The notes under the pieces were generated by a model. It had not been told where the DNA came from. It saw only the letters and a list, made by a program, of their open reading frames with translations, and made no database searches. The position numbers and the translations under genes were made by a program. A stretch of 64,000 bases of DNA, taken from positions 1,674,001-1,738,000 of the forward strand of contig NC_018719.1 of NCBI RefSeq assembly GCF_000303155.1. The letters run 5' to 3'. Source of the stretch: Candidatus Nitrososphaera gargensis Ga9.2 (GTDB taxonomy: Archaea > Thermoproteota > Nitrososphaeria > Nitrososphaerales > Nitrososphaeraceae). Positions 40,517-47,169 of the stretch are shown here, piece after piece (within the stretch, counting starts at the first letter, position 1; each line of letters starts with the position of its first letter).

Positions 40517-42304
40517 TTGCACGTGAGCAGCAAGAGGACATTTTCAAAAAACAGCATCGCATTGCTGGTTTTGACGGGCGCGATTGCAGTGTCGCTGTCG
40601 TTGGCATCGTTCCAGTATTCGAATTTCACCGCAAACGAGATACTAAAGATCGCCAGCGACAATGTCAGGTCAAACGCAAGGATCCAAGTGAACGACCTTG
40701 AAAGCGTGCTGGTGCACAGGCTGGATTCTGTCACGTCAAATCTCGAAGTGATCTCCAAGGCCCGCTCGGTGCAGAGCAACGAATTTGAGCGCGGACAGGC
40801 GCTATTCAATGCTGCTCAGGATTCTACCGCCAACCTGACAAATTTTTACATGTGGCTTGACGGCGAAGGCAGGATCGTATGGCTCAGCAACATAAACCAG
40901 ACAGCCTACGAGCAGTTCAGGGGAACGGACCTGAGCCAGAGAGCGTATTTCATTGAAGCAAGGAACAGGCAGGACGGCGCTTACTACAGCAGCGCCATAG
41001 ATTCTAATGACAACATTACAAGAATATACATATCCTATCCAATCCTTGGCACGAGTGGAGAATTCATAGGGGCAGCCGTGGCAGGGATAAGGGTTGACAC
41101 CTTTGGGATGTCGCTCCAGGACCAGCTGTCGCCAGAAACGCAGAGCTCGGTGGGCATGACAGACAGAAGCGGCATGATATTATATTCTGAGTCAAGCGAG
41201 TTAATAGGCAAAGACGTTTTTGGCCCAGAATTCCAGTCGCTCCTGCTGCCGGGGCTGAAGGATTCTTTTAACAGGTTCCTGACCGAGTCGCTTCAGGGGC
41301 AATCGGGCATACAGGACTTTACTGTCGGAAACGCCACATACAGCATAGCGTACGAGCCCATAATTATCGGGGGTGAGCAGTTTGGCACTCTTTATGTGGT
41401 GACGCCACACCAGTTTGCCGACAACGTCAGAGCTCTGGCAGACCAACAGAGGGACTTTAGCTCCGTCATGGTGATCGTGATTGGAGTTGCAGCCATTGGC
41501 GTAGCGGCGCTTGTGCTGGCATGGAACTCTAGGCTGGAAAGAGTGGTTGCCGCAAGAACGTCGGAGCTGAAATTAAAGACCGACGAACTAAAGAGATCGT
41601 ACGATTCCCTCGCCGCTGCCAACGAGCAGCTCAAGGTGCATGATAGGCTGCAAAAGGAATTCATCAATGTCGCCGCGCACGAGCTCCGGACCCCGACGCA
41701 GGCGATCCTGGGGTATGCAGAGCTCCTGCAGATGAGCCCAGAGGACAGGGACGAGATGATCAGGGCAATATACCGCAACTCTGTCCGGCTCCAGCGGCTG
41801 ACAAGCGACATACTGGATGTTACAAGGATAGAAAGCGAGGCATTCAAGATCGACAAAGAAAGGTTCAACCTCAAAGACGTGATACTTGGCGCAATACAGG
41901 ATGCCAAGAACCAGCTGCCTGATGGCAGAATCGAGTTCGTGTACGAGCCGACCGATATCTACGTGCACGCCGACAGGGGCAGGATAACTCAGGTCATATC
42001 AAACTTGCTTGATAACGCGGCCAAGTTCACCAAGCGGGGCACGATTACGGTGTCGACTGAAAACAAGAACGGCCAGGCCGTTGTGAGCGTTCAGGACACG
42101 GGCAGTGGTATCGACAGCGACATTATGCCGCGGCTCTTTAGCAAGTTTGCCAGCAAGTCGGACAAGGGGACCGGCCTTGGGTTGTTCATCTCAAGAAGCA
42201 TAATAGAGGCGCATGATGGAAGAATCTGGTGTACAAACAACAGCGATGGCAAGGGCGCCACATTTGCATTCAGCCTGCCGCTGTCGTCATCATCACAGAC
42301 CTAA
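40517..42304 (+). CDS. Membrane histidine kinase with Cache-like sensor
   Basis: A 595-residue sensor kinase; start TTG 40517 or GTG 40523. Membrane segment 1 is near residues 12-34 and segment 2 near 315-337. Between them lies a double-Cache-type extracytoplasmic domain of about 280 residues (LTNFYMWLDGEGRIVWLSN, GTDLSQRAYFIEA, YISYPILGTSGEFIGAAVAG). A short coiled coil leads to the H-box VAAHELRTP (His388), then N-, G1- and G2-boxes (SNLLDNAAKF, DTGSGID, GTGLGLF). Such domains bind small organic or amino-type ligands. The divergent response regulator is the likely partner. Confidence 0.92.
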   Translation: MHVSSKRTFSKNSIALLVLTGAIAVSLSLASFQYSNFTANEILKIASDNVRSNARIQVNDLESVLVHRLDSVTSNLEVISKARSVQSNEFERGQALFNAAQDSTANLTNFYMWLDGEGRIVWLSNINQTAYEQFRGTDLSQRAYFIEARNRQDGAYYSSAIDSNDNITRIYISYPILGTSGEFIGAAVAGIRVDTFGMSLQDQLSPETQSSVGMTDRSGMILYSESSELIGKDVFGPEFQSLLLPGLKDSFNRFLTESLQGQSGIQDFTVGNATYSIAYEPIIIGGEQFGTLYVVTPHQFADNVRALADQQRDFSSVMVIVIGVAAIGVAALVLAWNSRLERVVAARTSELKLKTDELKRSYDSLAAANEQLKVHDRLQKEFINVAAHELRTPTQAILGYAELLQMSPEDRDEMIRAIYRNSVRLQRLTSDILDVTRIESEAFKIDKERFNLKDVILGAIQDAKNQLPDGRIEFVYEPTDIYVHADRGRITQVISNLLDNAAKFTKRGTITVSTENKNGQAVVSVQDTGSGIDSDIMPRLFSKFASKSDKGTGLGLFISRSIIEAHDGRIWCTNNSDGKGATFAFSLPLSSSSQT

Positions 42305-42562
42305 CCCGGTGTTGAACGACTGGGTTTTACTCTTATTGTTTACCTGTTGAGTTAGCTTGCTCAGGCTCGCCATGATCTCGGCTTCTTGCGTAGAGTATAT
42401 CTTTTGGTCGATGACACCGGCTTCATAGTCTGACATCAGCTTTAGCAGCCTTGCCTTGAGCACCCTCGCCTGCTCGCGTACCTCCTGCTCGTAGGCTAGG
42501 CTATTGCAATGCTGCAATATTGCGTCAAGCGTCAGTTTCATGATAATGAGTTCCAGTATCAT
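42293..42562 (-). CDS. GvpG-like gas vesicle accessory protein
   Basis: An 89-residue helical protein. The part AYEQEVREQARVLKARLLKLMSDYEAGVIDQKIYSTQEAEIMASLSKL matches the shape of GvpG: a short helix pair with a Tyr-Glu-x-Gly-x-Ile stretch. An inner ATG at 42541 (MKLTLDAIL) is an alternative start. It is the last gene of the gvp run, six bases after gvpF/L. The C-terminal tail is Asn/Ser-rich. The 3' end overlaps the convergent sensor-kinase gene by 12 bases. The assignment rests on both sequence shape and context. Confidence 0.7.
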   Translation of the reverse strand: MILELIIMKLTLDAILQHCNSLAYEQEVREQARVLKARLLKLMSDYEAGVIDQKIYSTQEAEIMASLSKLTQQVNNKSKTQSFNTGLGL

Positions 42563-42568
42563 GCCACA

Positions 42569-43315
42569 TCAACAGAATGAGTACGGCGCCCAAGGCCCGC
42601 TCCGGTGCAGTGTCATTATTCCCTCCTTTTCAAACCTCTCTCTCAGCTCTTTTACCTTGGCGTCAAAGATCTGTATTTTGTTCCTTTCTACAAGGTATGC
42701 TGCGTTTAGCACGATCTCGGCAACGTCATTTTTCAGTAGTCGCTTGTCGACTGCCACCTCTGCAAGCGAGTCGTTTATCTCGCCAACCATCTTGTCTATC
42801 TTCATCAGCGTCTCATTTTTTACGGCGTCTTCCAGCCTCAGCTTCAAAAAGTATGACGTGCCGGGCTTAGCAGATGAGATCTCTTGCTTTATCTTCCTTA
42901 TCTCCTCAGAAGACTGCTCGGCCTGCTCCCTGATCTTTTTCAGGCTCGACTTGTTGAGAAGCACCTTGATCCCTATCTCGTCCTTGCCCCGGAGGCTTGT
43001 CAGCTTGGCATGGTAGTCCTTGTACGAGCTGGCAAGGAGTTTCTTTATCCCTGCTTCGTTTTTCAGTATCACCCCGAACCTGACTGGGAGCACCGTATTG
43101 GCTTCCCGCGCAGCCTCGACCACTCGCTGATGCGCAACAATGTCGTTCAAGTTAGATTCCATCTGTTTGAACGGGATTGTGCTGACCACTGCTGCAATGT
43201 CCTTGTAGTAGATGGTGTAGACAGTGTTTTCCCCGATGCCGATGTTGCCAAAGTTGCCGATCGGTCTTTTCTCTTCCCAATCTATGATGCAATAGATGTA
43301 TCTGCCGTCCACCAT
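42569..43315 (-). CDS. gvpL: Gas vesicle protein GvpF/GvpL
   Basis: A 248-residue protein of the GvpF/L family, accessory proteins thought to bind GvpA and start vesicle assembly. Typical features: N-terminal YIYCIIDWEE, the AAVVSTIPF strand, LNDIVAHQRVVEAAREANTVLPVRFGVI, and the C-terminal LHRSGPWAPYSF, close to the family end SGPWPPYNF. It starts at ATG 43315, ten bases after the GvpK gene. Only one F/L-type gene is present where haloarchaea have two. Confidence 0.92.
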   Translation of the reverse strand: MVDGRYIYCIIDWEEKRPIGNFGNIGIGENTVYTIYYKDIAAVVSTIPFKQMESNLNDIVAHQRVVEAAREANTVLPVRFGVILKNEAGIKKLLASSYKDYHAKLTSLRGKDEIGIKVLLNKSSLKKIREQAEQSSEEIRKIKQEISSAKPGTSYFLKLRLEDAVKNETLMKIDKMVGEINDSLAEVAVDKRLLKNDVAEIVLNAAYLVERNKIQIFDAKVKELRERFEKEGIMTLHRSGPWAPYSFC

Positions 43316-43325
43316 CTCTCCATCA

Positions 43326-43808
43326 CTATTTCTTTGCGGTCAGCGTGGCGAGCAGCCGTAGGGTTGCAAGGTCGACGCCGGCCACCACAAGAGTCACATC
43401 GCCGGCGATCACAGTCCCCTGATCTATGAGCTTGTCAACCACGTCAACAATCGTCACCTGCCTTTGGTTTTCCGACTGCTGTTGGAACCTTATGCTAAGC
43501 TCCTCAGGCTTGACTCCAAACTTGTCTGCAATGTCGGCTGTCCTCTCCCTTATCTGCATAAACGCAAGCCCGAGCCTCTCCACCTCCTCGGCTGTCAGGG
43601 TACCGGATTCGACCCTTCTGACAGCCTGCCTCTCAAGGATATCAGTCATAGTCTGAACAAGCGTTAGCACCAGCTTTGCCAAGCCGTGCTGCAGCTTTTC
43701 AGCGTCCGGCCCCTCAGGCTTTTTTTCAAGTGCAAGCAAAATGTTGTTGTTATTGTTGCTATCAACGCTACTGGTATCCAAGCTCTTTCTTGCCACCTCC
43801 TCCAACAA
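43326..43808 (-). CDS. gvpK: GvpK fused to a GvpA/GvpS-like domain
   Basis: About 160 residues from TTG 43808; TTG 43781 and a GTG between them are alternatives. Residues 12-22 contain an Asn run. Residues 35-107 are GvpK (LVLTLVQTMTDILERQAVRR, ESGTLTAEEVERLGLAFMQI). Residues 119-157 (TIVDVVDKLIDQGTVIAGDV, then TLVVAGVDLATLRLL) are a GvpA/J/S-type segment with the Asp-Lys-Leu...Gly-Thr-Val-Ile pattern. Thus two usually separate gas-vesicle proteins are fused. The start of the gene lies inside the end of the GvpJ/M-like gene (41-base overlap). Confidence 0.85.
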   Translation of the reverse strand: MLEEVARKSLDTSSVDSNNNNNILLALEKKPEGPDAEKLQHGLAKLVLTLVQTMTDILERQAVRRVESGTLTAEEVERLGLAFMQIRERTADIADKFGVKPEELSIRFQQQSENQRQVTIVDVVDKLIDQGTVIAGDVTLVVAGVDLATLRLLATLTAKK

Positions 43809-44067
43809 TCTTTTTCTCTTTCTTTTCCAACTCAGCCTTTTCCCTTGCCCACTTTTCCCACGGCAGCTCTATGCCGTAGCGCTTGGCCGTTTCAAGCGAC
43901 GCTATCACAAGATTTACTTTGAGCGAAAGCAGGTCGACGCCAGCAAAGGCGACGGTGATGTCGCCGTTGATCACGACGCCCTTGTCAAGAATTCTGTCAA
44001 GCAAGTCGAAAAGGCTCAGTTGCCTTGCTGGCAGCTCGTGCCGATTGCTGCTAAGCAAGGTCTTCAC
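43768..44067 (-). CDS. GvpJ/GvpM-like gas vesicle protein
   Basis: A 99-residue GvpA-family protein starting at GTG 44067. The core FDLLDRILDKGVVINGDITV and LVIASLETAKRYGIELPW fits the GvpJ/M branch, whose members have the YGLEFP-type end, rather than GvpA proper. A charged tail with Lys/Glu and GGGGKK follows. GvpJ/M are minor components probably acting at the vesicle tips. The start lies inside the end of the zinc-protein gene (17-base overlap), showing tight coupling. Confidence 0.85.
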   Translation of the reverse strand: MKTLLSSNRHELPARQLSLFDLLDRILDKGVVINGDITVAFAGVDLLSLKVNLVIASLETAKRYGIELPWEKWAREKAELEKKEKKIVGGGGKKELGYQ

Positions 44068-44308
44068 CTAGCCCCAACGTCCCACGCCTTATCTTGCAAT
44101 ATGAGCAGATGCCACTGTCCTTAAACCAGTGCTTTGGGCAGAAACCCTCAAGGTAGTGCTCCGGTATGGACTTGGTAAGGTGCATGGCGGCGATGTCAAA
44201 AGGCGTCCCGCGCTGGCATTCAGGGCACCTTGTAAAGACCCACCCGTTACCCATCGCACCTTTCAGGCCTACTTCCTCATACTTGCCACATACAATGCAG
44301 ACGGCCAA
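44051..44308 (-). CDS. Small zinc-binding protein within the gvp cluster
   Basis: An 85-residue protein with start TTG 44308. It has four Cys pairs: CIVC at the N-terminus, CPEC, a Cys in FCPKHW with a nearby His, and CSYC, consistent with two zinc sites. It is not a known Gvp type to me. It lies between the GvpA-like and GvpJ/M-like genes, overlaps the latter by 17 bases, and should therefore be made together with them. It could act as an assembly factor or regulator. Confidence 0.7.
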   Translation of the reverse strand: MAVCIVCGKYEEVGLKGAMGNGWVFTRCPECQRGTPFDIAAMHLTKSIPEHYLEGFCPKHWFKDSGICSYCKIRRGTLGLGEDLA

Positions 44309-44332: not shown

Positions 44333-44572
44333 TTATTTACCAGTCGATGTTTGGGCTGCCACCAGTGCAGGCGGTCCGGCCAATCCGAGCGCGGCTGCAT
44401 ACCGGAGGAACGTGTCCACGCCTGCCACGACGATTCTTGCCCTTACGACGAGTATCTCGATTCCTACTAGCGAAACTGAAAGGTTCGCGTCGATCACAAG
44501 GCCCTTGTCAAGCACGCGGTCAAGCAAGTCGAAGATAGAGAGAATCGGCCTGAAACTTTGCTGCTGTGACAT
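44333..44572 (-). CDS. gvpA: GvpA-like gas vesicle structural protein
   Basis: A 79-residue protein starting at ATG 44572. Residues 13-60 follow the GvpA pattern: FDLLDRVLDKGLVIDANLSV, SLVGIEIL, then RARIVVAGVDTFLRYAAALGL. This hydrophobic two-strand plus helix motif builds the gas vesicle wall. Where typical GvpA has Trp in the IDAW segment, this one has Asn. The tail is short and Ala-rich. It is the most GvpA-like protein in the cluster, but GvpJ cannot be excluded. Confidence 0.85.
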   Translation of the reverse strand: MSQQQSFRPILSIFDLLDRVLDKGLVIDANLSVSLVGIEILVVRARIVVAGVDTFLRYAAALGLAGPPALVAAQTSTGK

Positions 44573-44653: not shown

Positions 44654-45418
44654 TTATGGCAGATTAGCCTTTACCTCTAGAGCCTCTATCGCAGGCCGGA
44701 GTGCTGTTGAAAAGTCGTGATTGGGGTTTTTCAGCACAAACACTTCTGACGACAGGGCACGCAGGATCTCGGTGTAGAACGGAATCGCCGTAATGACCTT
44801 GGCGTTAAAAAGCGTTTCAAGCCTCGCCCTGACCTTTTCCTTGTCTACGCCCGGAGGTATCATGTTTGCGATCAGGATCTGGGGCTTTTCAAGCACCCGC
44901 GTGACTTCGAGCATGACGCCGGTCCCAAAAATGTCCTGGCTGTCCATCCTCGATATTATGATGTTCATGTCGCAGATGCCCATCGACACGAGCGTCGACT
45001 TTTCGATGCCGGGGTGTGTGTCTATTATCATGTAGTCAAGGCGGTGCAGGCGCGAGATCACGGCCAGCGCATCTCGGAACATCCCGATCTCGTACCCCTT
45101 GGAAAGCACCTTGATGATGTCCTCTGCCTTGAAGCTGGCCGGGACGAACACCAGGCTGCCCTGCTTCAAGTTCATCTTTTCGGTCAGGTCTATCGCAATA
45201 TCCTCTGAAGAGCACAGGCCCAGCAAATAGTCATTAAGGGTGTGCTTTATCTCGTCAGGCGTCATTTCAAAGAGCACGTGGAGGCCGGGCCCGGCTAGGT
45301 CGAGGTCAAGCACCCCGACGCGCCTGCCTTCAAGCGCAAGCAGCACGGCCAAGTTTGCGGTGATCGTGCTCTTGCCAGTGCCTCCCTTGAATGAATGAAC
45401 CGCAATGTTGAGCGTCAT
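44654..45418 (-). CDS. ParA/MinD-family ATPase linked to the gvp cluster
   Basis: A 254-residue deviant-Walker ATPase. The P-loop is SFKGGTGKSTITANLA, with both the signature and the catalytic Lys, and switch regions are VGVLDLDLAGPG and MIIDTHPGIEKS. ParA/MinD proteins position DNA, septa or large protein bodies by ATP-driven patterns on a surface. ATG 45418 overlaps the stop of the histidine kinase by four bases. The first gvp gene begins 82 bases downstream. A role in placing gas vesicles is plausible, because some bacterial gvp clusters encode a ParA. Confidence 0.88.
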   Translation of the reverse strand: MTLNIAVHSFKGGTGKSTITANLAVLLALEGRRVGVLDLDLAGPGLHVLFEMTPDEIKHTLNDYLLGLCSSEDIAIDLTEKMNLKQGSLVFVPASFKAEDIIKVLSKGYEIGMFRDALAVISRLHRLDYMIIDTHPGIEKSTLVSMGICDMNIIISRMDSQDIFGTGVMLEVTRVLEKPQILIANMIPPGVDKEKVRARLETLFNAKVITAIPFYTEILRALSSEVFVLKNPNHDFSTALRPAIEALEVKANLP

Positions 45419-47169
45419 TTTGTAGCAAGCTGCCTCCTCAGAGATTTAAAGAATTCAGATTCAGTCACCTTGCCTGCTTCGTACTTGATGGCATCTATCA
45501 ATGTTGGGTGGAGCTCTATCTTTTCTATGGTCTCGTCCCCGATGATATTTTCCCTCAGGCCATCTATCAGGCGCTGGAGACCTTCGAGTCCCTTTTCGAT
45601 CCTGCTGTCCACTTCGCGGCGCATCCTCTTGTAGCTTATCTGTTGGTTGATGAATTGCTGCCGCGCCCTTATCAGATTCCTCGATTCCTCGACCTGCTTC
45701 TGGTAGCGCTCCAAGGCTTCGTTCCTCTTGCGCAGGGCTTCTTCACGAGCCTCTGTTAGGCTCGTTTTCATGGCGCCTATCTTTTCCAGCGCGTCGCGCC
45801 TTAGCTGGTTTATCGTCCTCTGGTTGTCGGTTATCTGCGGCAGCTGGTCCGGCGTAGGCGGCTCTGACCGGCGGAAGCGCACCGGCAGGCTGAATGCAAA
45901 TGTGGCGCCCTTGCCATCACTGTTATTGCCGGCCCATATGGTGCCCCCGTGGGCCTCTATTATGCTCTTTGCAATGAACAGTCCAAGACCTGATCCTTTT
46001 TCCGACCTTGTCGTGAATTTTTGAAACATCTTGTCCTTTATCGACGGATCAATGCCCCTGCCGTTGTCCTTCACGCTGACTATCACGTTGGATCCAGAAA
46101 GGTGTGTGGAAACGACGATGCTGCCTTCACGCTCGTCGATGAACTTCATGGCGTTGTCGATGATGTTGAACAGCACCTCTCCGATCTTGCCCCTGTCGCA
46201 CTCGACCATGAGTATGGGCTCGCCGGGCTCAAACAATATTATGGGCTTTCTGGCCTCTTTATCAACCCGCTCGCCTACGATGTGCATGATGAGTGAGTGT
46301 ATATCAGCGGTCTCTATATCAGGCACCTTGGCGAGCTGCTGTCTGTATTTCTGCTCCACATCCGCTATCACCTCAGAGATCAGCGTGTTCAGGTTCGCCT
46401 GCTCGACGTACAGCCTGAGCCGGCCTGTCTCTATCCTGCTTGCCTGCAGTATGTCCTCCGACAATTTCAGCAGCCGCTCGGCGTTGCGGCTAATGATCGC
46501 AAGTTCTTCCTTTATCGAGCTGTTGTTGCCCAGCTTTGACTCTATCAGCTCAAGCCCTCCAAGAATCGGCATGATGGGCGTCCGGAGCTCGTGCGCGGCG
46601 ATGTTGATAAACTCGTCTTTCAGCCTGTCCGCTTCGCGCAGCTTGTCGTACAGCTCCCGCTGCTTCTGTATGTATTCGTCCTTCATGCGGTCGGCTTCTC
46701 TGAACTTTTCATAGGCCGCAGCCTGGTCCCAGAGGTTGTCAAACATCGTGACAAGAGGCATGGCGGCCGAAGGGCTTGAAGAGTAGATGCTTACGGCATC
46801 GTGCCCGTCCCTCATTATTCCATATTCCAATGTGGCCTTCCTGTCTACTATCAAAATCTCCTGCATCTCTGCCCTACCCTCACGGTGGATGTACCTGACC
46901 GCAACATTGTTGGTGTTTGCAGTCAGCAGCTTGACAGAGGCAGTGGTTAGCACCCGCACCTGCACGCCGCGCTTGGCGGCATCTTCAAGCGATTGAAAGA
47001 TTGAATGTAGCATGCTCGCCCGGTCTGAGGAGGGCAGAGGAGGAGGCAACAGCAGCATGATCTCGCTGCCAGCCGAGTTTACAAGGTCAACATATAACTG
47101 GTGAGCGTCTGTAGGGCTCCTGATAATGTCTGGCGCGCCCCTATCCCCGGCGTTAGGCAATGCAGACAC
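45415..47169 (-). CDS. Soluble histidine kinase with PLD/TrmB-like N-terminus and long C-terminal coiled coil
   Basis: A 584-residue kinase starting at GTG 47169. Residues 15-150 resemble the phospholipase-D-like sensor fold of TrmB-type regulators (VQVRVLTTASVKLL, EILIVDRKATLEYGI), here without clear catalytic HKD motifs. Then follow a short coiled coil, the H-box NIAAHELRTP (His193), and the ATPase boxes NIIDNAMKF, DNGRGID, GSGLGLF (about 300-432). About 150 residues of charged helix follow after the ATPase domain, an unusual extension. No membrane segment was seen. It precedes and overlaps the ParA gene, so it probably controls or is part of the gvp system. Confidence 0.88.
   Translation of the reverse strand: MSALPNAGDRGAPDIIRSPTDAHQLYVDLVNSAGSEIMLLLPPPLPSSDRASMLHSIFQSLEDAAKRGVQVRVLTTASVKLLTANTNNVAVRYIHREGRAEMQEILIVDRKATLEYGIMRDGHDAVSIYSSSPSAAMPLVTMFDNLWDQAAAYEKFREADRMKDEYIQKQRELYDKLREADRLKDEFINIAAHELRTPIMPILGGLELIESKLGNNSSIKEELAIISRNAERLLKLSEDILQASRIETGRLRLYVEQANLNTLISEVIADVEQKYRQQLAKVPDIETADIHSLIMHIVGERVDKEARKPIILFEPGEPILMVECDRGKIGEVLFNIIDNAMKFIDEREGSIVVSTHLSGSNVIVSVKDNGRGIDPSIKDKMFQKFTTRSEKGSGLGLFIAKSIIEAHGGTIWAGNNSDGKGATFAFSLPVRFRRSEPPTPDQLPQITDNQRTINQLRRDALEKIGAMKTSLTEAREEALRKRNEALERYQKQVEESRNLIRARQQFINQQISYKRMRREVDSRIEKGLEGLQRLIDGLRENIIGDETIEKIELHPTLIDAIKYEAGKVTESEFFKSLRRQLATK

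Follow-up and report, generated by a model that had tools for sequence, protein, structure and literature searches.

A candidate GvpK-GvpS fusion in the compact gas vesicle operon of Candidatus Nitrososphaera gargensis

Can GvpK, an assembly factor of gas vesicles, and a member of the GvpA family be parts of one and the same polypeptide, and what would such a polypeptide do? The question is raised by an open reading frame on the minus strand of the genome of the ammonia-oxidising archaeon Candidatus Nitrososphaera gargensis (43326..43808; 160 codons if read from the first TTG, 43808, from which the residues of the fusion protein are numbered here; coordinates refer to the window, that is, the whole stretch of 64,000 nucleotides analysed, corresponding to positions 1674001-1738000 of a genome consisting of a single contig of 2,833,868 bases). 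The initial annotation had read this frame as a GvpK at residues 35-107 followed by a GvpA/S-type segment at residues 119-157, and a Pfam search bears out both assignments, the two domains exceeding the respective cut-offs: residues 35-106 (43491..43706, minus strand) match PF05121 (GvpK; E 1.1e-21, 77.1 bits against a cut-off of 25, model positions 5-76 of 85), a genome search giving the same place, and residues 119-157 (43338..43454, minus strand), in the frame of GvpK, match PF00741 (Gas_vesicle; E 3.4e-10, 40.4 bits against a cut-off of 25) over model positions 1-39 of 39. The evidence on this second, putatively GvpS-type domain comprises the Pfam match, an alignment of the paralogues, a domain tree and dN values; in the paralogue alignment, the chain ends 3 residues past the Pfam core and is devoid of the C-terminal stretch of GvpA and GvpJ.

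The fusion is real and not an artefact. In all of the 32 loci of the archaeal order (G052 and G060 being set apart and the match of G644 left out), the GvpK and the GvpA-type domain lie in a single open frame, and chance or a sequencing error is excluded because the arrangement is shared by 32/32 relatives; conservation in relatives was the check that the initial annotation had proposed, and within this clade neither separate genes divided by a stop nor a C-terminal part lacking similarity to the GvpA family was found. Both domains are under purifying selection: in comparison with three close relatives, dN is 0.07-0.09 for the GvpK domain, where dS exceeds 2 or is saturated, and 0.01-0.05 for the GvpS-type domain, where dS is 0.7-1.0. 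The N-terminus and the linker of 12 residues between the domains (residues 107-118; 43455..43490, minus strand) vary freely in the same comparison, the dN of the linker being 0.27-0.71 across 10-12 codons. The five-Asn run (43743..43757, minus strand), placed by the initial annotation at residues 18-22, is indeed present before the GvpK part; it is missing from the three closest relatives, so that among the four genomes compared it is found in this one alone, and, since it is unconserved, needs no functional explanation.

That the frame might yield two proteins, through an internal start or through cleavage at the variable linker, the fusion then existing at the gene level only, is very improbable; in its favour, the short, polar linker is free of constraint and this genome has a GTG codon where the two domains meet, but start codons at the boundary are not conserved and are lacking altogether in several loci, L011 and L012, both close relatives, among them; no conserved internal start codon was found near the boundary of the S domain across the 32 loci, and the gap between the domains stays short in most of them. 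The product of the fused gene is presumably an uncut chain. It had been suggested that the fusion fixes GvpK and the GvpA/S segment at a ratio of 1:1, and this follows provided that the single polypeptide is not cleaved.

The first TTG (43808) falls within the upstream gvpJ-type gene, whose 3' end overlaps the fusion ORF. Translation probably begins at the TTG of codon 10 (43781), because a Shine-Dalgarno-like sequence, GGAGGAGGTGG (43793..43803, minus strand), precedes it by 11 nt and because the orthologous ORF of L012 starts at the equivalent codon; the protein would therefore count about 151 amino acids, with the Asn run at residues 9-13.

To which type of GvpA-family protein does the fused module belong? 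A genome-wide search with PF00741 returned three matches in each genome with a single cluster (G000, G020, G120, G180, G229, and G355) and six in G008, which has two clusters; the three modules of each cluster are GvpA, GvpJ, and the fused module, and, with exactly three GvpA-type modules per cluster, no separate GvpS is present in the near-complete fusion-bearing genomes. In a tree of the GvpA-type domain (47 columns), the fused modules form one clade (100/91) which joins GvpS of Streptomyces (91/77) and falls apart from the GvpA and GvpJ groups of the archaea themselves (deeper fork 78/80), the divergent module of G497, placed elsewhere among bacterial-type domains, being the one exception. 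The alternative that the segment is a GvpJ-like (or haloarchaeal GvpM-like) module, derived from a duplication of the neighbouring gvpJ, is unlikely: the segment is 40% identical to the GvpJ of the window against 22% to its GvpA, and its best matches among the NCBIfam models of this type are those of haloarchaeal GvpM (NF046091, 25.8 bits against a cut-off of 109) and haloarchaeal GvpJ (NF046090, 15.2 against 125 bits), all of them far under the cut-offs, but the tree places archaeal GvpJ across the root fork from the clade of fused segments, and the segment ends shortly past the homologous core, as does GvpS of Streptomyces and of Spartinivicinus. The tree, built on a short domain, weakly favours a GvpS-type module. 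The GvpA-type fold (a helix followed by a beta hairpin) was sought in AlphaFold models, which for the C-terminal segment are of low confidence and derive from shallow alignments: in the full fusion (an alignment of three rows) the GvpK part is helical with moderate confidence and the C-terminal part has a pLDDT below 50; the S segment alone with its paralogues (ten rows) reaches a mean pLDDT of 57 and a pTM of 0.27. A sequence search of the PDB gave one weak match only (GvpA, 7r1c, E 0.6), and a search of IMG/VR returned no relatives.

The fused gene stands in a compact operon, apparently composed of gvpA, the gene of a Cys-rich protein, gvpJ, gvpK::S, gvpF/L and a gvpG-like gene, preceded on the minus strand by genes for a histidine kinase and a ParA/MinD ATPase. 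GvpA, the main shell protein (44333..44572, minus strand), matches PF00741 with 53 bits and the NCBIfam model of GvpA with 82 bits, under its cut-off of 100; the GvpJ-type protein (43768..44067, minus strand) matches PF00741 with 63.4 bits, its best NCBIfam match, haloarchaeal GvpJ (56 bits), being under the cut-off; the only GvpF/GvpL of the cluster (42569..43315, minus strand; PF06386, 215.8 bits) begins 10 nt past the fusion gene; the weak GvpG-like protein (42293..42562, minus strand) is named from its position and from a match to PF05120 of 21.2 bits, under the cut-off of 30.6. Between gvpA and gvpJ, a protein of 85 amino acids with CxxC motifs (44051..44308, minus strand), matching no Pfam family above cut-off, is kept in nearly all related loci. 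The GvpJ-type proteins of relatives with an unfused GvpK bear CxxC zinc-ribbon-like tails of their own.

The ParA/MinD-type ATPase adjoining gvpA (44654..45418, minus strand; PF10609, 66 bits; TIGR01969, 79 bits, under cut-off; also L049, L051) might be concerned with vesicle positioning. G020 and the Nitrososphaera loci have it beside gvpA, and G008 has it close to the first of its gvp clusters; it was not found beside gvp genes in the loci examined of families f9, f10 and f8. The sensor histidine kinase (45415..47169, minus strand; PF00512 and PF02518) carries a coiled-coil-like C-terminal tail (approximately residues 440-584), homologous to the coiled-coil-like N-terminus of a different kinase encoded after gvpG in relatives (L045:6122-7207, L014, L015, L016); to judge from the sequences, this part appears to be a shuffled domain associated with gvp clusters. 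Several relatives have, between gvpG and the kinase, genes for small proteins which are Hsp20-like by eye (L048:7655-8137, L056:7482-7904, L057:5129-5566); the one that was scanned, that of L048, had no match in Pfam.

According to a paper of 2013 (PMC3835317), no thaumarchaeote sequenced by then other than N. gargensis had gas vesicle genes. Among 70 genomes of the family, 6 have GvpK; for the order the figure is 34 of 400 sampled genomes, and for the phylum 8 of 398, one of the eight being under the family cut-off. The loci with the fusion span amoA-bearing genomes as well as genomes of families f8 and f10, where amoA was not found. GvpK is unfused in G052 and G060, more distant members of the same order, and in G094, from the phylum, and these three genomes carry GvpN and GvpO. 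Neither GvpN (TIGR02640) nor GvpO (PF05800) was found above the cut-off of its family model in the fusion-bearing gvp genomes tested (ten, including G000, G008, G020, G120, G180, G229, and G355; six of the ten are near complete and come from cultures or good assemblies); the best TIGR02640 match in G000 reaches 29 bits against a cut-off of 266.8. GvpN, described as essential and present in all gas vesicle clusters (PMC10903477), is missing, and the cluster, known here from its genes, may or may not form full vesicles.

The absence of both proteins together with the single GvpF/L, and the lack of gvpK in 64 of the 70 genomes of the family, might suggest a remnant, in decay or put to another use, which no longer makes gas vesicles (its product could be, for instance, a protein shell without buoyancy) and in which the fusion is tolerated under relaxed function. 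This reading is quite unlikely in view of the strong purifying selection on both halves of the fusion, of a gene order kept across many genera and of a GvpA which is near canonical.

The initial annotation had further held that, in known clusters, the two modules are separate proteins, which is correct for haloarchaea, Streptomyces, Spartinivicinus and Octadecabacter, but not for cyanobacteria (Nostoc, Anabaena flos-aquae). In the latter, GvpK is followed by a C-terminal GvpA-like domain, as in the archaeal fusion: a plasmid-encoded GvpK of Nostoc sphaeroides (WP_118171797.1), the one cyanobacterial sequence compared, matches PF05121 at residues 18-99 and PF00741 at residues 115-153, and a review of 2024 (PMC10903477), the other source of the comparison, assigns a GvpA-like domain to the GvpK of Anabaena flos-aquae. 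The K-S architecture has therefore already been reported in cyanobacteria, and what is added here is that it also exists in this archaeal order and is conserved there. The gene order of N. sphaeroides is gvpN, gvpJ, gvpK, gvpF/L (the gvpJ, annotated only as "gas vesicle protein", is named from its match to GvpJ), the order gvpJ-gvpK-gvpF/L being common to cyanobacteria and to the archaeal operon; the Nostoc cluster has no separate GvpS in the stretch examined, as is the case in the archaeal cluster. Cyanobacterial clusters have GvpN and GvpC, whereas GvpN is absent from the archaeal clusters tested.

Actinobacteria and Bacillota have the same two modules, but as two polypeptides and with S before K instead of last: the S gene of Streptomyces and of Spartinivicinus immediately precedes the K gene, with an overlap or a gap of a few bases, and in Bacillus megaterium the two genes overlap by 47 bp (PMC11223475). 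In Methylocella and Methylosinus (WP_197732044.1, WP_142864684.1), both modules are carried by one chain, as in the archaeal fusion, but in the reversed order S-K, with the GvpA-type domain first and a linker of about 60-70 residues. These S-K proteins (L020:3620-4255; L061:4632-5291) are annotated as GvpJ, so that their annotation is incomplete. In haloarchaea, where GvpK is essential and GvpK and GvpM both bind GvpL (PMC7688916, PMC9501494), the genes of GvpK and GvpM are separate, with gvpL between them, an arrangement from which the archaeal fusion described here differs.

With regard to function, we put at roughly two in three the probability that the protein is a natural GvpK-GvpS fusion acting, in a compact archaeal gas vesicle operon, as a covalent unit of a nucleation complex with GvpJ and GvpF/L. 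The nucleation role, the most likely one by analogy, is suggested by published interaction data on B. megaterium and Halobacterium: in the former, the contact between GvpA2 and GvpL is lost on deletion of GvpS, GvpK or GvpJ, and it has been proposed by the authors that vesicle formation is seeded by these three proteins (PMC11445434); in the latter, GvpL is bound by GvpK, GvpJ, and GvpM each (PMC7688916). The GvpK part would be a soluble helical assembly factor; the C-terminal part would complete, with GvpA and GvpJ, the set of three GvpA-type modules of the cluster and replace a separate GvpS (or, in haloarchaea, GvpM). Acting in the early nucleation complex, the fusion protein may bring its S segment to join or seed the first GvpA-type rib or cone, the tethered K segment linking this seed to GvpF/L, whose single copy would be the partner.

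The evolutionary origin of the fused cluster was considered in trees of GvpK, the first of which placed the archaeal K-S proteins on the bacterial side. Haloarchaeal GvpK groups with the unfused GvpK of Thermoproteota in a single clade (99/97), which excludes both the fused archaeal proteins (84/97) and bacteria. A clade uniting the archaeal fusions with GvpK of Nostoc is neither supported nor rejected (p-AU 0.258, with one cyanobacterial sequence); a transfer of the cluster from bacteria is not claimed, because a single clade of all archaea is not rejected either (p-AU 0.406).

K and S occur as overlapping genes, fused as K-S in cyanobacteria and in the present archaeal order, and fused as S-K in Methylocella and Methylosinus; the two domain orders imply at least two joining events. 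Fusions hint directly at parts which act together, and these ones bear on the nucleation of gas vesicles and on the role of GvpK; the joining of K to a shell-like S in two orders and in unrelated lineages points to a K-S unit amenable to expression and study as a single protein. A tentative proposal, to which we give rather less than even odds, is that GvpK and GvpS are one physical unit across gas vesicle systems, and that the archaeal operon is a naturally reduced system, free of GvpN and GvpO, in which A, J, K-S, a single F/L and a G-like protein are enough to make at least bicones or small vesicles. Because it is small, the operon might lend itself to reconstitution and to the question of whether GvpN is truly universal.

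Some variants of the cluster deserve mention. An apparent fusion of the Cys-rich protein to GvpK in L003 and L010 was rejected, as it spans a run of N in a draft genome. In L028 (G529), a single draft genome, K, S and F/L appear to be joined in a triple fusion. The second of the two gvp clusters of G008 (L050, from L050:9161 onward) has diverged strongly: its proteins are longer, as is its K-S linker. The K-S cluster of L055 (G497) is divergent too; it contains two GvpF/L genes and a protein composed of a KaiC-like part and a Ras-like GTPase.
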